Assembly: GCA_903930515.1 (NCBI GenBank)
Contig: CAIYYW010000028.1
Location: forward strand, 1 to 12,779
Origin: an uncultured delta proteobacterium
GTDB taxonomy: Bacteria > RBG-13-61-14 > DRUE01
Length of the DNA: 12,779 nucleotides
Direction: 5' to 3'
Below are positions 1-8,758 of the stretch, piece after piece (positions within the stretch are counted from its first letter, which is position 1; each line of letters starts with the position of its first letter). The notes below the pieces were generated by a model. It ran no database searches, had not been told where the DNA came from, and saw only the letters and a program-made list of their open reading frames with translations. Made by a program: the position numbers and the translations under genes.

Positions 1-3000
1 ACTCCCATTGTTGAAAACAAAATCTATTTTATTCACTTTACTGCCATTCGGCGGGGCGAATCTATAGGTAAATTTCCAATTCTCGTTACCTTCCTTCTCC
101 ATAGGGCAGCCCGGCTCCTTGGTCCATTTGCTACCATCGTTAAAATGGATATGAGGTGTTTTCCATGCCGAGTGATAATGAATTGTTATATGATCATAAA
201 TTGACCGCGATTTATTTATATTTGGTATAATGGAGAATAGCATGCTTCCAAGCTTTTTTATAACCGTTTCTTCCGAATGGTCGAACATGCCAGCAACTGA
301 ATTATTGAGCTCTTCGATAATGGGTTCAGCTTCTTTCTCAAATCCTTCAAAGGCGTCTTTCTTTTTTAATCCTTCAATAAGATCGTCCATTGGATTGGAG
401 TATTCTGCGCACTTTCGCTTTAAACGCTTATCCACCCAATTAAGACCCCAATGATCGGATTCTTGGAATTCAATTTTTATTTTTTCAATATCTTCCAGCA
501 AATCTCTCAAGGCTATCTTTTTCGTCTCGCGCTCTTTCTCGCTCCTATTTTCGTTTTTGAGTTGATCTTTTGCACTGTTTATCACATTCTCAATTGTGGA
601 CCGTGTGTTCTCCACATGGGAAAGGTAAACTGGCAGTTGCTGGTCCATGAGATAATGGCTGACAGTCTGTCGCATCTCGTCAAATTCCGGGTCGTGGCCC
701 TTAACCGCCTCGATGAAAAACACTTTAGGATCTTTAATGCCAATAGATTTAAGCTGTTGAGAGACGTGCTTTTGAATTTCATCTTGATCCTTCTTATCTT
801 TGAATAAGGCTTTCCTTGTAATAGTAAAAAATAGCTTGCGATCACGTTCCTTCTTATCCAAGCTATAACGCTTAAGAATTAAGAGGTTTTCATGGTCTTC
901 CCTCCCAGCCGCCTGCTGGGAGAGAAAACAATAAAGTATCGGACTAGAACGGTACTGAAGAAAGTCCCGTGCCATTTGGCGATGATGCGGAATTGGCGAG
1001 TCCGTTCCGGGCGTATCAATAAAGGAGATATGCTTTAAGAGGGGGTGGTTGAAACCAACCGTCACCATGTTGAGGCGTAGGGCAATTTCTGGTTTTTTAA
1101 TCGTGGCAAACAGTTCAGGCAAAGGCATACCAGGAATCAGTTCTGGAGGCTTCTTTGCAAAACGCCTGATCACCACTCGTTCGGGTACCTCCTTTGTTAT
1201 ACGCACTTTCTCGACCTTGACGGTTGATCCATTGGGGGTCATTGGAGAAAATCCAGGTTCTCCAAAATACAAATAGTCTATCTTTCGGCCTTTTATCAAG
1301 GAACGAAGATTATCTAAAAGCCCGCTATCGGTCGTTTCCCTAAACGTTATCGGTTTTGATAAAAGGCCGCGTGCGGTGTCAGGCTTCAAAGTGTATAGTT
1401 CACAATCAGCAAGATTAACATGACCGGTATCCAACAACCATACATCAAATGCCTCAATCTCCTGATGGTGGACCTTAAAGGCATCTTTTCCCAATGATGG
1501 AGCCGGGCTTAAAAATGTCAACTCCACTTCGTCCTGCCAGTCTGCTTTTAAAAGCATCTGTTTCTCAGCATAGACTATTCGGTTGACTGTGGACGTCTCT
1601 GGCTTGACACCGGTAGGCAGAAATTCGGATTTTTTGTCATCAGTGGGAACCTCTAAAAGAGCGTTTATAACCGCCGATTTGCCTGAGCTAAACATGCCCA
1701 AAAGGGCAATTTCACTTCGACCGTCTTTAACACTATTGCTGATTGACTCAAGGACCTTGACCTGGGTGGCGGTAAAATCTAACTTTTTTTTCTGATTTAA
1801 AAGGCTGTATATTATTTGTTGAAGGTCGTCTCGAGCTTTCGCCAATTCTGACGCGAATGCGATTTTTTTATCTTCAGGAGGGGAATTGTCCGATTTCGTT
1901 CCTTTTGGCGGCTCGGCTTTGGCACACTCTATATTATATAAATCAATCAAATTCTGGACATTTTTCTCTAATTCGGCTTCATCCTCATACTTCTTGTTTA
2001 TCCCTTGATTGCATAAGCGATTGATGCGGCAGCAACGATCAATTAGATCAGTGATCCTTTTTTCCAGCTCGATGATGTTTTGCTTCTCGTTTTCATTACC
2101 AGTGACAAACCATTTCTCCAATACAACCAGTAGCCTGAGGGCCTCAAGGCGCTCGTCGATCAAGGTGCCTTTTGCCGCCAAATTCAAGGCCTTGTGAAAG
2201 GCCTGCCAGCCGCTTTCGGCTAACCCCTGCTTTCTTTGCTCCAGGAGACGACCAATTTCGGATAACAGATCAGCGATCTGGCGGCGGCGAAGGATGGCTA
2301 ATGCACAGAGCAGAACTCCACTCTCTGGGCTGGCGGGGATAGCCAATGATTTAATATTCATCTGCAGGGATACGGGAAGGGCCGCTTGGGGTAATTTCCA
2401 GTATTCAAGCTCTAATGCTGAGCGTGTGGGCGAAAGCTCCTCCTTGCGGATGTTGAGCATTAGCACGGACGGGTAGTTTCGGCAAGCCTCTAACGTCAGT
2501 TGGTCAGCATCGGATAGGCCGCGCGAATGGCAAAGATAGAAAATGACGGTGTGTTCGTCCAGGCTGCTCTTGACCATCCACCAGTTTTTATGGTCAGGAG
2601 TTAGGCTGGGCATGTCAATAAAACGCAGATTCCAGGATTTTAGTAGAGGGTGGGGAAGCTGGATGGACAGCCGGGCCACCTCTTGCCCTCTGGTTATTCT
2701 GACCACCTCGTCATAAAGCCGCCAGATGGAGTCCTTTTGGGTCGGCTGAAGCGTAATAATCTTTGTTGTTGCTCCGCCCCCGTTCCCCAAGGTGGCGAAA
2801 GCCTCAAGGTGTTTACCATAACGCAACTCAATGGGATAAACAGTGTCCGGCCCGGCCTTTTCTGGGAACCGTGCTAGGCCGTGTTTTTCCAGATCGAGCA
2901 GTGCATTAATCAACGCCGTTTTGCCGGAATCGGAAGGACCGAGCAGGGCGATGACCAATGGAGGAGGTTTAATCGGGTTTGAGACCCGAACATCTAAGTT

Positions 3001-3081
3001 TCGCAACATAAAGCGGTAATCAGCCTCTATGTCATCGAGATTAGAAGCGAGAGTTAATATCTCTTCAGGCTGACAAATCAA
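1..3081 (-). CDS. Tandem dynamin-like GTPase with C-terminal CBM25-like module (3' end cut by window)
   Basis: The frame is open from the TTG at 3081 to base 1: 1,027 codons with no stop. GTPase domain 1 has the P-loop GPSDSGKT (residues 48-55), a switch-I threonine at T80 before a YPIELRYG stretch, DMPS (156-159) where DTPG is usual, and NIRK (210-213) where NKxD is usual. A helical, coiled-coil-like region and a charged linker rich in Lys, Pro and Asp (about 380-420) follow. GTPase domain 2 has GMFSSGKS (462-469), LPTGVKPETST (488-498), a true DTPG (689-692) and a weak G4, TRKA (755-758). After more helical sequence, residues 964-1027 resemble a CBM25 starch-binding module: HYHSAWKTPHIHF, KWTKEPG and FVFNNGS. 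No membrane hairpin is visible. TTG was chosen because it overlaps the preceding stop (TTGA) and keeps the amphipathic helix before domain 1; the ATG at 3009 is the alternative. It is the last visible gene of the dynamin operon. The family call is firm; the function is unknown. Confidence 0.88.
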   Translation of the reverse strand, partial: MICQPEEILTLASNLDDIEADYRFMLRNLDVRVSNPIKPPPLVIALLGPSDSGKTALINALLDLEKHGLARFPEKAGPDTVYPIELRYGKHLEAFATLGNGGGATTKIITLQPTQKDSIWRLYDEVVRITRGQEVARLSIQLPHPLLKSWNLRFIDMPSLTPDHKNWWMVKSSLDEHTVIFYLCHSRGLSDADQLTLEACRNYPSVLMLNIRKEELSPTRSALELEYWKLPQAALPVSLQMNIKSLAIPASPESGVLLCALAILRRRQIADLLSEIGRLLEQRKQGLAESGWQAFHKALNLAAKGTLIDERLEALRLLVVLEKWFVTGNENEKQNIIELEKRITDLIDRCCRINRLCNQGINKKYEDEAELEKNVQNLIDLYNIECAKAEPPKGTKSDNSPPEDKKIAFASELAKARDDLQQIIYSLLNQKKKLDFTATQVKVLESISNSVKDGRSEIALLGMFSSGKSAVINALLEVPTDDKKSEFLPTGVKPETSTVNRIVYAEKQMLLKADWQDEVELTFLSPAPSLGKDAFKVHHQEIEAFDVWLLDTGHVNLADCELYTLKPDTARGLLSKPITFRETTDSGLLDNLRSLIKGRKIDYLYFGEPGFSPMTPNGSTVKVEKVRITKEVPERVVIRRFAKKPPELIPGMPLPELFATIKKPEIALRLNMVTVGFNHPLLKHISFIDTPGTDSPIPHHRQMARDFLQYRSSPILYCFLSQQAAGREDHENLLILKRYSLDKKERDRKLFFTITRKALFKDKKDQDEIQKHVSQQLKSIGIKDPKVFFIEAVKGHDPEFDEMRQTVSHYLMDQQLPVYLSHVENTRSTIENVINSAKDQLKNENRSEKERETKKIALRDLLEDIEKIKIEFQESDHWGLNWVDKRLKRKCAEYSNPMDDLIEGLKKKDAFEGFEKEAEPIIEELNNSVAGMFDHSEETVIKKLGSMLFSIIPNINKSRSIYDHITIHYHSAWKTPHIHFNDGSKWTKEPGCPMEKEGNENWKFTYRFAPPNGSKVNKIDFVFNNGS

Positions 3082-4541
3082 TATTTTCGGCGTTCCTTAT
3101 CTACAACATCAATTAGGGTTAAGAGGTCTGCGTATGTCCCCTGCCAGTTATATTTCTTCTCATAATTTTTCCGTACAGCCTCAATACGCTTTTTGAACTC
3201 AGTGATAAATACTTCATTGGAGAAGGGGATTTGTTGGGTTATGTCCTCACTAATCACTTCAATTAAGCGTTCCAGGCGAGGGCCAATCATGGTTTCGATA
3301 GCGAAATAAAGAGTTGTTTCGATGCGCGCCTGCGGTGTCTTGCCTTGAAGATCGTCTAGCTTCTGGCGCAACCGTTTTTTCCAATCATCAATAGTGGATG
3401 ATGATTCCAACTTTTGGTTGACGCCAGCATTGTGCTCGGTTTCTTTTAAAGCGCTCAAGGCTTCGTTTTTTGCCGCATCCAGAACTATCTGTATATCAGT
3501 CTCGCGCATATGATCTGCGGCTTCGCGAGTCTTTTCAGACAGCCAATCGGGGTTAATGGCAACTGCCGCTGGATACTCGATACTGATGGATCTGGCCATT
3601 TCGTCCAGTTTGCGGTGAATGGCCTCAGCTTCATTCCGGTAAATGCAGGCTGGTTGGTTTAGCACTTCGTCAAGCTCGGCTACGAATGTGCGCCAAGTGT
3701 CCAGGAACGGCCACAGAGCGTCATCGATATCACCCACACCTTTTCTGGAAATCCAGCCGGAAAGGCCAAATGCGGTCTTCTGGGCGGCGCTGTCGAAACG
3801 CATGCGCCATTCGCGCAGGCTGTCTCGCACCGTTAATAGGGCATTGTTCGCAATGTGGTGAATATGGGTGGCCGCTTGTCCAAAAAGCGCTTCGCTGTTT
3901 TGGATGGTTTGGGCGGCTTTGCTACGTTCACGCTCAGCCTCTTGCATTGATGCCTTGGCCTTTTCAAGAACCAAAACAAGAACCTCAAGGAAAGCTCCAG
4001 TATGAAGCATAATTTCTGCTTGTTGAAATATGCTCCTCAAAAAATCGGCAAGTTTTTTAGGAGCATCATTACGCCAAAAAAGCCATTCGACTCCATGGGG
4101 CTTCAGTCCTCGCAATAGCCGCAGGTTTTCAATCTCTTTTATTGCGGTTTTTTGATCATCCTCGCCCCCCATGACTTCAAGTTCGGTCACAACCAGCCTT
4201 GCCGGGCGACCGGCTTTTATAAGCTTAATAAGAGCCTCCGCTTCTTCTTTTGCTAGCGCCGCATAGGCAGGGGTCGCCACGATCACTACATCTGCCAGAA
4301 CCGCTGGTGAGACCATTTCCAAAGGCATCTGCACCACCGTACAAAGGTGTTTTTCATCAATCTCATGGCTGATGACCTCGATGCCCTTTTTCGATATGCC
4401 TGTCATCGCACAGATGGGTGGACCACTTAAAAACGCCTCCATCCGATCAAAGTCCGATGAAAAATCGATCCCGAGTGCCGCGATGGTCCGGCGAGCTGAG
4501 GCAATCATCATTAACGGGTCGGAAAAGGCTTTGCCGCTCAT
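3078..4541 (-). CDS. Degenerate dynamin-like protein (probable pseudo-GTPase), 487 aa
   Basis: The protein has the layout of a small bacterial dynamin: a short alpha/beta N-terminal domain, then a long helical stalk-like part (about 170-487). The positions where GTP motifs belong can be placed but are not functional. The P-loop position reads TGISKKGI (47-54) instead of GxxxxGKS. QMPL (71-74) replaces DTPG. TELE (119-122) replaces NKxD after a normal ADVVIVATPAYAAL strand and helix. Only about 17 residues separate the first two motifs, so the switch-I part is essentially missing. No clear membrane segment is seen. The ATG overlaps the stop of the upstream GTPase gene (ATGA) and has AAGGAG 7 bases upstream; its own stop overlaps the next start. 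By analogy with paired dynamins, I infer a non-hydrolysing partner or scaffold for the two neighbouring GTPases. The homology is inferred from motif order and context, and an unrelated helical protein is the alternative. Confidence 0.8.
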   Translation of the reverse strand: MSGKAFSDPLMMIASARRTIAALGIDFSSDFDRMEAFLSGPPICAMTGISKKGIEVISHEIDEKHLCTVVQMPLEMVSPAVLADVVIVATPAYAALAKEEAEALIKLIKAGRPARLVVTELEVMGGEDDQKTAIKEIENLRLLRGLKPHGVEWLFWRNDAPKKLADFLRSIFQQAEIMLHTGAFLEVLVLVLEKAKASMQEAERERSKAAQTIQNSEALFGQAATHIHHIANNALLTVRDSLREWRMRFDSAAQKTAFGLSGWISRKGVGDIDDALWPFLDTWRTFVAELDEVLNQPACIYRNEAEAIHRKLDEMARSISIEYPAAVAINPDWLSEKTREAADHMRETDIQIVLDAAKNEALSALKETEHNAGVNQKLESSSTIDDWKKRLRQKLDDLQGKTPQARIETTLYFAIETMIGPRLERLIEVISEDITQQIPFSNEVFITEFKKRIEAVRKNYEKKYNWQGTYADLLTLIDVVDKERRKY

Positions 4542-6394
4542 GCCGCGACTCCTTTGCTTTCATCACTGATCAAATTCTCTAGGTTCTTAAGAGTGTCATG
4601 TGCCTGGTTCCAGCTTTGAACTAAGTCAATTAAACGGCTCTTTTCGACTTCTTTTTCATCGTTTCCTTCACGGAGCCGATTCTTTATTGAATCGAATATC
4701 TGCTGATTAACCTTTTTAAAATGATCGGAAAGTTCCATGACCAACTTTTTTCTCTCGGTGCGAATACGCATGCGGGTTTCTCTTTTAATACGGTTGATTC
4801 GTGCGTCCAATTTGCCCATGAATCCGCCAACACCGAACAGGCTAGAAATAAGAAGAACGGCGTCCACAAAGGCGCCTCCTGGAATGAAGGCCAAGGCAAT
4901 GAAGGATGCAATTGTTGCTGCAAGACCTAAGGTTAGTTCGACCATTAAATTGCTCAGTTGGCGATTGATGGCCTCAGTATTAAATGGTGCGCCATCCTTG
5001 GCTTGATTTATCTCAGCACCAATCTCTTGCCATTCAATTTGTAAAAGGCTTTGGACGTTATCTTTAAGTCTGGTTACTAAAAATTCATAATGGGTTTTAG
5101 GAAATAGATCCTCAAATTCTCGTTTCCATTTATCAAGGTTACGCTGGCTCTGTTTTTCGCTGACTTTTCCTAGAAGAGCCTTAATGCCCTCCCCCAGAGA
5201 TTCCAAAGATATATCGGCGCGTCGGTCTATGAAAACATCCACTGCGTCATTGAGATCGTTGATGAACTCCCCAACATGCAGGTCCACCGCATCACTTATC
5301 TTTTCATCAAGAAATGGCTTTTTGGGAGCCATGACTTTATTAATTATCCGATCAGCCTCCGATAAATCTTCCTTTATAGCTTTGACTTTGGTTTCCGCAC
5401 GACCTAGTTCTTCGCGTACTCCGCCGCGCAGTTTCTCTAACAGGTCATTGATGCCTTTCTGGGTTGCAACAACCCGTTGTTCCGCTGCTTTGCCGCTTCC
5501 AAGCAGATATTCCTGCAAAAGGGCTTGGCGGAATGGGGCATATCCCCAGTGGTCAAGTTCCTTGGTGACGGCTTCAAAATTTTCCTCTCCGGAGTTTTGT
5601 AGTGCTTCTAGCAACTGACGAACTTTAACAGCACTGAAGGTGATGGGGGCGTTTTCTATTACATCGCCGAAAAGTTGGCGGGCCTCATCTAAAGCCTTTT
5701 CCAATTCGCCTTCCGAAACACGGTCTGCGTTGGAAACGATACAAAACATCTTCTTACCCGTAGTCCGGAGCCGTTCGGCTAACTCCACGGCCCGCTCGCC
5801 ACCAGGCTTGAGAGCGTTGATTACCAGAATCGCCACGTCGGCGATGTGGAGGGAATTAAGAGTCACCTGATCGTCTTGGGCGTTGGCGCCCAATCCGGGA
5901 GTGTCAATAATTATCATATTTTTAAGGAGCTCGTTGTTCACGTGCAACACCACCCGAGCACCCTTGCCCGAAACCGAGCGGCCTTGCTCTGTACGTTGAT
6001 CAGTATATTTAGCAGCGTCCACAAGTGACCCGGCAAAGACGGTTTTTGCCTTTTCGCCATCACCCACGACTACCTCGCCTCTCTCCTCTTCACTCCACCA
6101 TAATTCAGTAACGGCTCCCGTTGTGGGTGTGACTCCCTCGACGACGATGTCTTTGCCACCAAGAATGGCGTTGATAAAGGCGCTTTTCCCAGCCTTGAAA
6201 TCGCCAACAACGGAGATGCGGAACGGCTCGTCGTATCGCCTGCGAATGTCAGCTACCTTGCTGGCAATGCTAGTGCATGTATAAAGAGTGGACTCGCTTC
6301 GCACATTATCAAGTCGCTCCAACCCCTTGATGGTCTTTTCGGTGTACTCAAGAGTATCCATCCATTCTCTGCGGACCGCTGAGGAAACATACAT
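4538..6394 (-). CDS. Dynamin-like GTPase with C-terminal membrane hairpin, 618 aa
   Basis: This is a canonical bacterial dynamin-like protein: a large GTPase that self-assembles on membranes and remodels them. Visible motifs are the P-loop GDFKAGKS (64-71), TPTT (89-92) for switch I, IIIDTPGLG around 161-169 for G3, and SNAD (221-224) at the NKxD position, where only the Asp is kept. Helical stalk sequence with heptad-like stretches follows. A hydrophobic hairpin at about 486-527 has two apolar stretches around FIPGGAF, where related proteins insert in or dip into the bilayer. A basic helical tail ends the protein. I chose the ATG at 6394 because AAGGGGG sits about 6 bases upstream. The frame stays open up to a TTG at 6508, but that 38-residue extension has no family features. 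It is the first gene of the operon and overlaps the next by 4 bp. The GTPase call is firm; the cellular role (repair, vesiculation or defence) is open. Confidence 0.92.
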   Translation of the reverse strand: MYVSSAVRREWMDTLEYTEKTIKGLERLDNVRSESTLYTCTSIASKVADIRRRYDEPFRISVVGDFKAGKSAFINAILGGKDIVVEGVTPTTGAVTELWWSEEERGEVVVGDGEKAKTVFAGSLVDAAKYTDQRTEQGRSVSGKGARVVLHVNNELLKNMIIIDTPGLGANAQDDQVTLNSLHIADVAILVINALKPGGERAVELAERLRTTGKKMFCIVSNADRVSEGELEKALDEARQLFGDVIENAPITFSAVKVRQLLEALQNSGEENFEAVTKELDHWGYAPFRQALLQEYLLGSGKAAEQRVVATQKGINDLLEKLRGGVREELGRAETKVKAIKEDLSEADRIINKVMAPKKPFLDEKISDAVDLHVGEFINDLNDAVDVFIDRRADISLESLGEGIKALLGKVSEKQSQRNLDKWKREFEDLFPKTHYEFLVTRLKDNVQSLLQIEWQEIGAEINQAKDGAPFNTEAINRQLSNLMVELTLGLAATIASFIALAFIPGGAFVDAVLLISSLFGVGGFMGKLDARINRIKRETRMRIRTERKKLVMELSDHFKKVNQQIFDSIKNRLREGNDEKEVEKSRLIDLVQSWNQAHDTLKNLENLISDESKGVAA

Positions 6395-6402
6395 TTTTAG
6401 CC

Positions 6403-6409
6403 CCCTTCT
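6403..6409 (-). promoter_or_regulatory. Ribosome binding site that fixes the start of dynamin gene 1
   Basis: A purine block, GAAGGGGGC, precedes CTAAAA-ATG on the minus strand. It supports initiation at 6394 rather than at the TTG at 6508, which has only a distant GAGGGG block. Confidence 0.6.
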
Positions 6410-6427
6410 TTTTCCTTTAGTATAACC

Positions 6428-6451
6428 CCGGTCAATGTCAGATCCGGTCAA
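6428..6451. repeat. Direct repeat pair CCGGTCAA-N8-CCGGTCAA in the dynamin leader
   Basis: Two identical 8-base units (6428-6435 and 6444-6451) are spaced 16 bp start to start, in the predicted leader about 95-115 bp downstream of the predicted transcription start. The arrangement fits a regulator binding site, but no regulator gene is nearby and chance is possible. A TATACT box close by lacks a good -35. Confidence 0.35.
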
Positions 6452-6549
6452 TACCGGCGTATTTTTTCCAGAGTTTCGGAGGGTGGGGCAAGCAATCGGC
6501 ATATCCAAAACAAACCCCTCAACTTCTTCACCCCTTGATACTGGTTGCA

Positions 6550-6759: not shown

Positions 6760-7335
6760 TTAGAGATGGAATCCCTTGGGCGGTTTTTTGGTGTCGGCCG
6801 TGACCCAGGCCAGGTCTGTTATGGTGTATGTGGGCTTAACTCGGAAGACCGGCTTTACTCGCTGTCCGATCTCCGGCTCTCCCACCAGCAGATAGCTTTT
6901 GAGGATTGTGGACACGCCCTCAAACTCCAAGTCAATGAAGCGGATGGGGGTTTCCAAGGTGTTAAAAGCGCCGGTGCGCGAGGTCACCACATACGAATAA
7001 ATGCGCGCGGTCTTGCGGGCCTTGGCGGTGAGGTCCACGATTTTCATTTTGGCCAGGCAGTCCGGGCAGAAGATGCGGAAGGGGATATAGATTGATCCTT
7101 TGTATTCGCACTTGTTGTTCACGCACTGTGTCCCCAGTAGCCTGCCCTGGGCCAGCCCCTCAAAGAAAGGGGCCTCTCCTCCGTAGGAATGCATATGCAC
7201 CAGCCGGCGGGGGTTGGTCACCCCGCAGAGCTTGCCGTCCTTGCGCCGGATCGGCGTGTTCGGTTCGGGGGTGGAGAACTCTCCCTTGATTTTGTAAGCT
7301 CCCTTTTCAATCCAAACTTTGGCTTGATTATTCAT
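6760..7335 (-). CDS. DUF35 Zn-ribbon/OB-fold protein, thiolase partner, 191 aa
   Basis: This is a member of the DUF35 family of small acyl-CoA-associated proteins, which form complexes with thiolases. Known examples are the archaeal thiolase/HMG-CoA synthase complex, where the DUF35 protein bridges two enzymes, and BbsA, the partner of the BbsB thiolase in anaerobic toluene degradation. A rubredoxin-like zinc knuckle is visible as C71-x4-C76 and C90-x2-C93. The beta-rich OB-fold part follows (about 105-175), starting at the ARIYSYVVTSR strand. The N-terminal 60 residues are longer than in the smallest family members. The start is one base after the thiolase stop, and its ribosome site (AAGGAGGAG) lies within the last thiolase codons, so the two are co-translated. 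Its likely job is substrate channelling or stabilisation for the thiolase-like protein. The substrate is unknown. Confidence 0.88.
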   Translation of the reverse strand: MNNQAKVWIEKGAYKIKGEFSTPEPNTPIRRKDGKLCGVTNPRRLVHMHSYGGEAPFFEGLAQGRLLGTQCVNNKCEYKGSIYIPFRIFCPDCLAKMKIVDLTAKARKTARIYSYVVTSRTGAFNTLETPIRFIDLEFEGVSTILKSYLLVGEPEIGQRVKPVFRVKPTYTITDLAWVTADTKKPPKGFHL

Positions 7336-7336
7336 C

Positions 7337-8758
7337 TTACTCCTCCTTTAACAGATGGTCGGGGTGCATCAGAATGGTGCAGGTTACGTGTGAACCCACG
7401 CCGGCATGGCTGATGGCCAGGCCGCGGCGGGCGTTGGGGACCTGGACATCAACCCAGTTTTTGGGTTTCTGCTTGCCGAACGATTTCCAGAGCTTGGGAT
7501 TGCCGTGGATCTCGGCGTGCCTATTCCAGATGTGGAGCGCGCACTCCACCACCTGCATGATACCGGTCGCGCCCACGGCGTGCATGCATCCGATCAGTCC
7601 TCCCGACAGGTTGGCCGGAAGTTTGCCCTGCTTGCCGGTGCGGGGGTTGACCAGGTAGCAATCGCCGGACTCCACATAATCGCGGCCGCGTCCGTAGGGA
7701 CGGATGCCGATGTCCTCGTAGGTCTGGATGTCGGAGATGGTGAAGGCGTCGTGCAGTTCTACAAAGTCCAGGTCCTCGGTCGGGTCCTTCACGCCGGCCA
7801 TCCGGTATGCGTACCACGCGCACATCCTCGCGGCGAGGAACCCGGTAAAGCCGGGGTAGCGATGCCCGCCGGGGAAGACCTCGTCCAGGTCCTGATACTG
7901 GTCGGGCGTTTCGTTGGGCAGGAGCGGAATCTCCATATCGCGGCGGTCCGCCACCCTGAGGCTGTGCGAGCCGGCCGCGATGTAGAGCCGGAGCGGGTTC
8001 TTGCACATCTTGAACGCGGTCTCCTCGTCCGCCACGATCACGCAGGCCGCGCCCACGCTCATCAGGCAGCAGTCCAAAACGCGGAGCGGATACGCCACCA
8101 CCGGAGACTTGAGCACATCTTCCACCGTGATGTCCATCGGCGACTGCGCAAACGGGTTCCAGCGCGCGTAGCCGTGGTTCTTGACCGAGATTTCGGCCAT
8201 GGTCCGGCGGAAGCTGTCCTGGCTCTTGCCGAACACCTGCCAGTAGCGCTGCGCCATGGTCGCGTAATAACCGGTGTAGATATGTCCCAGCGGCGTTTCC
8301 CAGTCCTTGTCCGCGGCGCAGGCGATGTAGTTGTTGCCCTCGTCCGTGGGAACCTCGTCCATCCGCTCCCAGCCCATGGCCAGCGCGCAATCGGAATAGC
8401 CCGAGGCCACGGCCTTGGCCGCCTCCCAGATGGTGGAGCCGCCGGTGGCGCCGCCGGTTTTCACGCCGATGTTGCCCAGCGGGTCAAGCCCCAACCGGTC
8501 GTGGATCACGGACTCGCCCAGAAGCTGGTCGCCGAAGTGGTCCGCGAAATGGCCGTAGTAGCAGGTGTGGATGTAGCCCTTGAGCTCGGCCGGACTCATG
8601 CCGATGAACTCCGCGGCCATGGTCAGGGCGTCAATGCACAACTCCTCGGTGCGCTTCTCCGGAAAGGCGCGCGCGTACTGGCTCTGGCCCCCTGTTACCA
8701 GGTAAACCGGCCGCATGAAACGAGGCACTTTCAACTGCCGTTCCGTGAATTTTATCAT
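7337..8758 (-). CDS. Thiolase-superfamily protein lacking the nucleophilic cysteine, 473 aa
   Basis: Thiolases cleave or form the C-C bond of beta-ketoacyl-CoA using a nucleophilic Cys and two further catalytic residues. This protein has the SCPx/archaeal-type thiolase layout: ELHDAFT (335-341), GGLIGCMHAVGATG (386-399, H393 in the GHPxGATG position) and the C-terminal ISHAGVGSH (449-457). At the expected nucleophile position the motif reads GVKTGGATGGST (98-109), so Gly103 stands where Cys is expected in the usual (N/A)-C-A-(S/T)-G. The length (473) exceeds typical thiolases (about 390), with extra sequence around 270-300. AAGGAG lies 7 bases before the ATG. It forms an operon with the DUF35 gene and shares its terminator. 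It could be a non-thiolytic acyl-CoA enzyme, a scaffold, or a thiolase with a relocated nucleophile. The superfamily is certain; the reaction is not. Confidence 0.87.
   Translation of the reverse strand: MIKFTERQLKVPRFMRPVYLVTGGQSQYARAFPEKRTEELCIDALTMAAEFIGMSPAELKGYIHTCYYGHFADHFGDQLLGESVIHDRLGLDPLGNIGVKTGGATGGSTIWEAAKAVASGYSDCALAMGWERMDEVPTDEGNNYIACAADKDWETPLGHIYTGYYATMAQRYWQVFGKSQDSFRRTMAEISVKNHGYARWNPFAQSPMDITVEDVLKSPVVAYPLRVLDCCLMSVGAACVIVADEETAFKMCKNPLRLYIAAGSHSLRVADRRDMEIPLLPNETPDQYQDLDEVFPGGHRYPGFTGFLAARMCAWYAYRMAGVKDPTEDLDFVELHDAFTISDIQTYEDIGIRPYGRGRDYVESGDCYLVNPRTGKQGKLPANLSGGLIGCMHAVGATGIMQVVECALHIWNRHAEIHGNPKLWKSFGKQKPKNWVDVQVPNARRGLAISHAGVGSHVTCTILMHPDHLLKEE

Follow-up and report, generated by a model that had tools for sequence, protein, structure and literature searches.

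The incomplete gene at the end of a bacterial contig encodes a dynamin-like protein with two G domains, which continues in the same open frame into a module of the CBM25 type. CBM25 modules are otherwise found on starch-digesting enzymes, and the architecture appears to be new: bacterial dynamin operons of this kind are known, and the recognition module is the novelty. Our preferred reading, to which we assign a probability of roughly 35%, is that the protein is a cytoplasmic tandem dynamin, in which the CBM25-type module has replaced, or was added to, the lipid-binding tip, and which would form a hetero-oligomer with the product of gene A (and possibly gene B) serving as a tether between a glucan and a membrane. 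Of this proposal, the operon, the module and both dynamin G domains are established.

Genomic setting of the operon

The window, i.e., the whole stretch of DNA analyzed, is one entire contig of 12,779 nt; its source genome (401 contigs, 93% complete) is fragmented and probably metagenome-derived. Its minus strand carries an operon of three genes, A, B and C in this order, which overlap one another:

1..3081, minus strand: gene C, tandem-G-domain dynamin-like protein with a CBM25-like module, 3' end incomplete (open frame to the contig end)
3078..4541, minus strand: gene B, orphan of 487 residues overlapping both neighbors by a few bases (no notable match in Pfam, NCBIfam or PADLOC)
4538..6508, minus strand: gene A, LeoBC-like bacterial dynamin of 656 residues with a complete G domain (Dynamin_N, E = 2.8e-20; PADLOC LeoBC, E = 4e-15)

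Gene C starts with a TTG codon at 3079-3081, which overlaps the stop of gene B, and its open frame leaves the contig at window base 1, so that a fragment of 1027 residues is encoded, in the same frame as stated in the initial annotation. No DNA overlap by which the missing end could be recovered was found elsewhere in the same genome. The GC content is 48-49% in genes A and B and falls to 39-40% at the end of gene C, compared with 51-63% in the neighboring genes, and searches of the other two genomes that represent this phylum in our sample (three in total) retrieved no counterpart of the operon. Its low GC content and the negative result in these two genomes suggest that it was acquired as an accessory operon. 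The GC-rich pair of genes lying beside it (window 6760-8758) encodes a thiolase close to PRK06365 and an OB-fold ChsH2-like protein.

Identification of the CBM25-type module

The following parts of gene C were delineated, from the N-terminus of the protein onward:

2212..3006, minus strand: first dynamin-type G domain, residues ~26-290 (strongest part of the MMR_HSR1 match, which has E = 4.3e-10 for the entire protein)
619..1824, minus strand: second dynamin-type G domain, residues ~420-821 (Dynamin_N, E = 1.6e-20 over the entire protein, best stretch here)
193..618, minus strand: short helical arm, residues 822-963, with two to three predicted helices (AF2 model residues 410-469 and 475-552)
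1..192, minus strand: CBM25-like module, residues 964-1027, the first ~60% to two thirds of the domain (HMM, 2c3v, Foldseek)
145..147, minus strand: H979, corresponding to H26 in the ligand site of the Bacillus halodurans CBM25 (HMMER alignment, codon check)
124..126, minus strand: W986, corresponding to W34 in the same ligand site (HMMER alignment, codon check)

That the tail of the protein (residues 964-1027, HITIHYHSAWKTPHIHFNDGSKWTKEPGCPMEKEGNENWKFTYRFAPPNGSKVNKIDFVFNNGS) resembles CBM25 had been noticed in the initial annotation, and the comparison with known modules bore this out. An HMM built from 19 amylase CBM25s, with the gene C tail left out of the profile, gave the tail 47.0 bits, whereas the top score among 5000 shuffled tails was 11.0 bits; with the entire protein the score was 40.5 bits and the match covered exactly residues 964-1027. 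The top phmmer match of the tail in the PDB (E = 3.3e-6) was 2c3v, which is the CBM25 of amylase G-6 from B. halodurans; the same entry was retrieved with the full-length protein (E = 2e-4). As the full-length search also matched SynDLP (675-753) and IniA (26-159), three modules in one chain emerged from a single search. The nearest BLAST matches were CBM25s in amylase-like proteins of Brevinematales (identities of 46% and 52%, with per-genome E-values of 8e-6 and 2e-7). Pfam searches with the isolated tail returned CBM26 (E = 5e-4, 20.5 bits, cut-off 28.1) and CBM_25 (E = 0.0096, 16.7 bits, cut-off 27.3), both under the curated cut-offs, a shortfall that truncation of the domain to ~60% of its length would produce.

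The immunoglobulin-like beta-sandwich anticipated for such a module was also the predicted fold. The AF2 model of the tail is all-beta across the module (block means of pLDDT ~66-85), and the first six Foldseek matches of this model were CBM25 chains with a probability of 1.00 and E-values of only 0.01-0.1; this match depends on the sequence match, since the AF2 input alignment contained CBM25s. VIA-align placed CBM56 and CBM25 among its top ranks with Z below 8 and hence adds little. Taken together, sequence, profile and predicted fold support the assignment of the module to the CBM25 type.

Putative ligand site and alpha-glucan metabolism

The maltotetraose site of 2c3v is formed by W34, W74, H26, D81 and N76 (PMC4625611). 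Two of these five ligand residues are visible in gene C, as H979 and W986, and the motifs around them, PHIHF and WTxxPG, are kept; the equivalents of W74, N76 and D81 fall beyond the contig end. A WDNN motif had been expected to follow the terminal FVFNNG, which is consistent with the closest amylase modules (FVFNNGSGTWDNN): there FVFNNGS is followed by GTWDNN, which would place the W74 equivalent just a few residues further on.

A gene for the glycogen synthase GlgA is present in the genome (536 bits with TIGR02095, cut-off 328) and adjoins a GT4-type glycosyltransferase on a contig also carrying GldF/GldG-like ABC transporter genes. Two strong GH57 matches were found in the genome and no GH13 enzyme; any glycogen pathway would therefore have to rely on GH57 enzymes. 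The presence of GlgA and GH57 enzymes makes a cytoplasmic alpha-glucan plausible and, with the H26 and W34 equivalents kept, so is recruitment of the protein to glycogen or another alpha-glucan, as judged from sequence.

The module might also have kept the CBM25 fold but bind no sugar, serving instead in protein-protein contacts or in assembly of the dynamin trunk. Such a role would agree with the fact that no more than two of the five ligand residues are open to inspection and that a single CBM25 module alone binds starch weakly, with a Kd of about 30 μM (PMC3398936). However, H979, W986, PHIHF and WTxxPG are all kept, although nothing would prevent their loss from a module that does not bind sugar, and we consider this explanation unlikely.

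Dynamin body of gene C

The initial annotation had described the host protein as a dynamin GTPase. It does carry dynamin-type G domains, two rather than one, and is LeoA/DynA/IniA-like. The first G domain, which matched a dynamin profile with an hhalign probability of 97.4%, has the P-loop GPSDSGKT at residue 48 and DMPS in place of DxxG, a replacement that may allow nucleotide binding without normal hydrolysis. The second has the P-loop GMFSSGKS at 462 and DTPG at 689, and the best Foldseek matches of its predicted structure were the Campylobacter jejuni DLP1/2 pair 5owv/5oxf (E ~4e-10). In the second domain, an insertion of ~125 residues (~518-644, window 1150-1530), predicted with low confidence, separates switch I from DTPG. 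The canonical NKxD was absent from its expected place in both G domains. The gene C protein is probably cytoplasmic, the one basis for this being that it has no obvious N-terminal export signal.

The helix predicted, with low to middling confidence, between the second G domain and the module amounts to ~140 residues, whereas ~340 residues follow the G domain of the gene A protein, a length sufficient for a neck and trunk. The lipid-binding domain of dynamins sits at the tip of the trunk and varies between members (PMC6104087), which, given the short arm, makes it possible that the module occupies this tip. The module could thus equally be a trunk-tip domain, whose return helices were lost at the contig end, or a true C-terminal domain. 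Of the original description, which put a CBM25 on the C-terminus of the dynamin, the module stands; its C-terminal place is unproven, as the contig ends at window base 1.

Partner proteins and a possible alternative role in defense

In the gene A protein the PADLOC LeoBC match spans residues 82-645 and includes a segment reminiscent of a dynamin paddle:

4784..4951, minus strand: hydrophobic paddle-like segment of gene A, residues ~520-575, the strongest hydrophobic stretch among the three proteins

No stretch of the gene C protein is as hydrophobic as this segment. For gene B no convincing homolog was found among 386 genomes; its interpretation as a degenerate G domain was unsupported (hhalign probability 0.5%).

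The ligands known so far for CBM25 modules are starch-type alpha-glucans and not glycans of phages or LPS. This counts against another explanation, in which the operon is a phage-defense system of the LeoA/LeoBC (Eleos) type, whose CBM25-like module senses a glycan or a glycosylated component during infection or envelope damage. Such a role would agree with the LeoBC match along the length of gene A, with the match of the PADLOC LeoA model to gene C, and with the operon being GC-poor and not detected in the two other genomes of the phylum. Eleos is described as a dynamin-like defense system (PMC11811056), and DynA of Bacillus subtilis is reported to give phage resistance (PMC8844932). On the other side, no further defense gene was recognized in the window, the other flank being lost at the contig end. 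Somewhat improbable when taken singly, the defense role is nearly as good an explanation as the glucan tether.

Search for a second dynamin-CBM25 gene

With the entire gene C as a query, no second dynamin-CBM25 gene was found in 98 and then in 386 genomes. None of the 14 PF03423 matches in the 386 genomes was a dynamin, as judged by eye from the translations; they occurred in glycoside-hydrolase-like or other large secreted-type proteins. CBM25-like modules were seen in similar large secreted-type proteins of different sampled genomes, several of them with a terminal short domain resembling a sorting signal. Genes A and B as queries against the 386 genomes, and comparison of the neighborhoods of 22 dynamin loci, revealed no operon like A-B-C. 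A limited pattern scan of ~85,000 genomes, which would miss a divergent relative as it used few peptide patterns, gave only 17 loci, from Brevinematales, from Paenibacillus and from relatives; in each of them the match was confined to the CBM tail, and none encoded a dynamin-CBM25 protein. Nor was such a gene found among viral contigs, plasmids and phages. The literature search retrieved no publication mentioning dynamin together with CBM25 and, judged by titles and abstracts, none on a fusion of a bacterial dynamin-like protein with a starch-binding module. The earlier remark that no system with this fusion had been described is thus consistent with these non-exhaustive literature and genome searches.

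The lack of a second example keeps alive the explanation that the contig is an assembly chimera, whose last bases come from a foreign amylase gene joined in frame to a dynamin gene. The module indeed occupies the extreme end of its contig, the genome is fragmented, and the closest relatives of the module are in amylases. However, strand and frame are unbroken across the junction, whose position coincides with a domain boundary; the GC content of the tail (40%) and of the adjoining helical arm (39%) reveals no break in composition at the join; and the nearest amylase modules are only ~50% identical. Considering these facts, we regard a chimera as improbable.

Proposed function

According to the glucan-tether reading, the products of genes A and C, and possibly B, would form a hetero-oligomeric complex, in which protein A would hold the inner membrane through its paddle and protein C would hold an alpha-1,4-glucan, most likely the cell's own glycogen-like polymer, through its CBM; the GTPase cycle of the A/C assembly could then tether or deform the membrane beside the glucan. 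Bacterial dynamins usually occur as operon pairs, whose hetero-oligomers tether membranes (PMC6104087), and the tether reading is supported by this pairing, by the overlap of the genes, and by the presence of a paddle-like segment in A and of none comparable in C. Against the tether, the operon, GC-poor and not found in the two other genomes sampled from the phylum, is more like an acquired accessory or defense operon than one with a housekeeping function in glycogen metabolism; three of the five ligand positions (W74, N76, D81), with the rest of the module, lie beyond the contig end; and the genome has no GH13 match.

Dynamins are known to be directed to their targets by tips or domains that bind lipids. 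If a sugar-binding module occupied the lipid-binding tip, this would represent a novel means of targeting a membrane-remodeling GTPase, and it would link bacterial dynamins either to storage polysaccharide or to the sensing of glycans. The specific arrangement, in which a starch-binding module replaces the membrane-binding trunk tip of a bacterial dynamin, so that one partner grips the glucan and the other the inner membrane, is put forward as a tentative possibility; if true, a fission or fusion dynamin would handle glycogen bodies or a glucan-marked target.

Comparison with known systems

The module of gene C is like the CBM25 of B. halodurans amylase G-6 (2c3v/2c3w/2c3x) in its motifs, its predicted beta-sandwich and its equivalents of H26 and W34. 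The B. halodurans module belongs to a secreted amylase, whereas that of gene C is attached to a dynamin, probably a cytoplasmic one, and is cut at the contig end.

The LeoA/LeoBC (Eleos) system is likewise a dynamin operon: protein A is similar to LeoBC along its length, and the second half of protein C to LeoA. Compared with Eleos, the present operon adds the orphan gene B and, in gene C, a second G domain, a short trunk and the CBM25-like module. The PADLOC models of LeoA and LeoBC both match here, remotely, and the architecture of gene C differs.

The paired dynamins DLP1 and DLP2 of C. jejuni (5owv, 5oxf), which are encoded in one operon and which the predicted structure of gene C resembles most closely, have a canonical long neck and trunk and no carbohydrate module, unlike gene C. 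DynA of B. subtilis, reported to protect against phages, has two dynamin units per chain, as does gene C; gene C was rejected as a DynA equivalog, scoring 57 bits with NF052648 against a cut-off of 1600. Each unit of DynA is an entire dynamin-like protein and no CBM is present, whereas in gene C the DxxG motif of the first G domain is degenerate.
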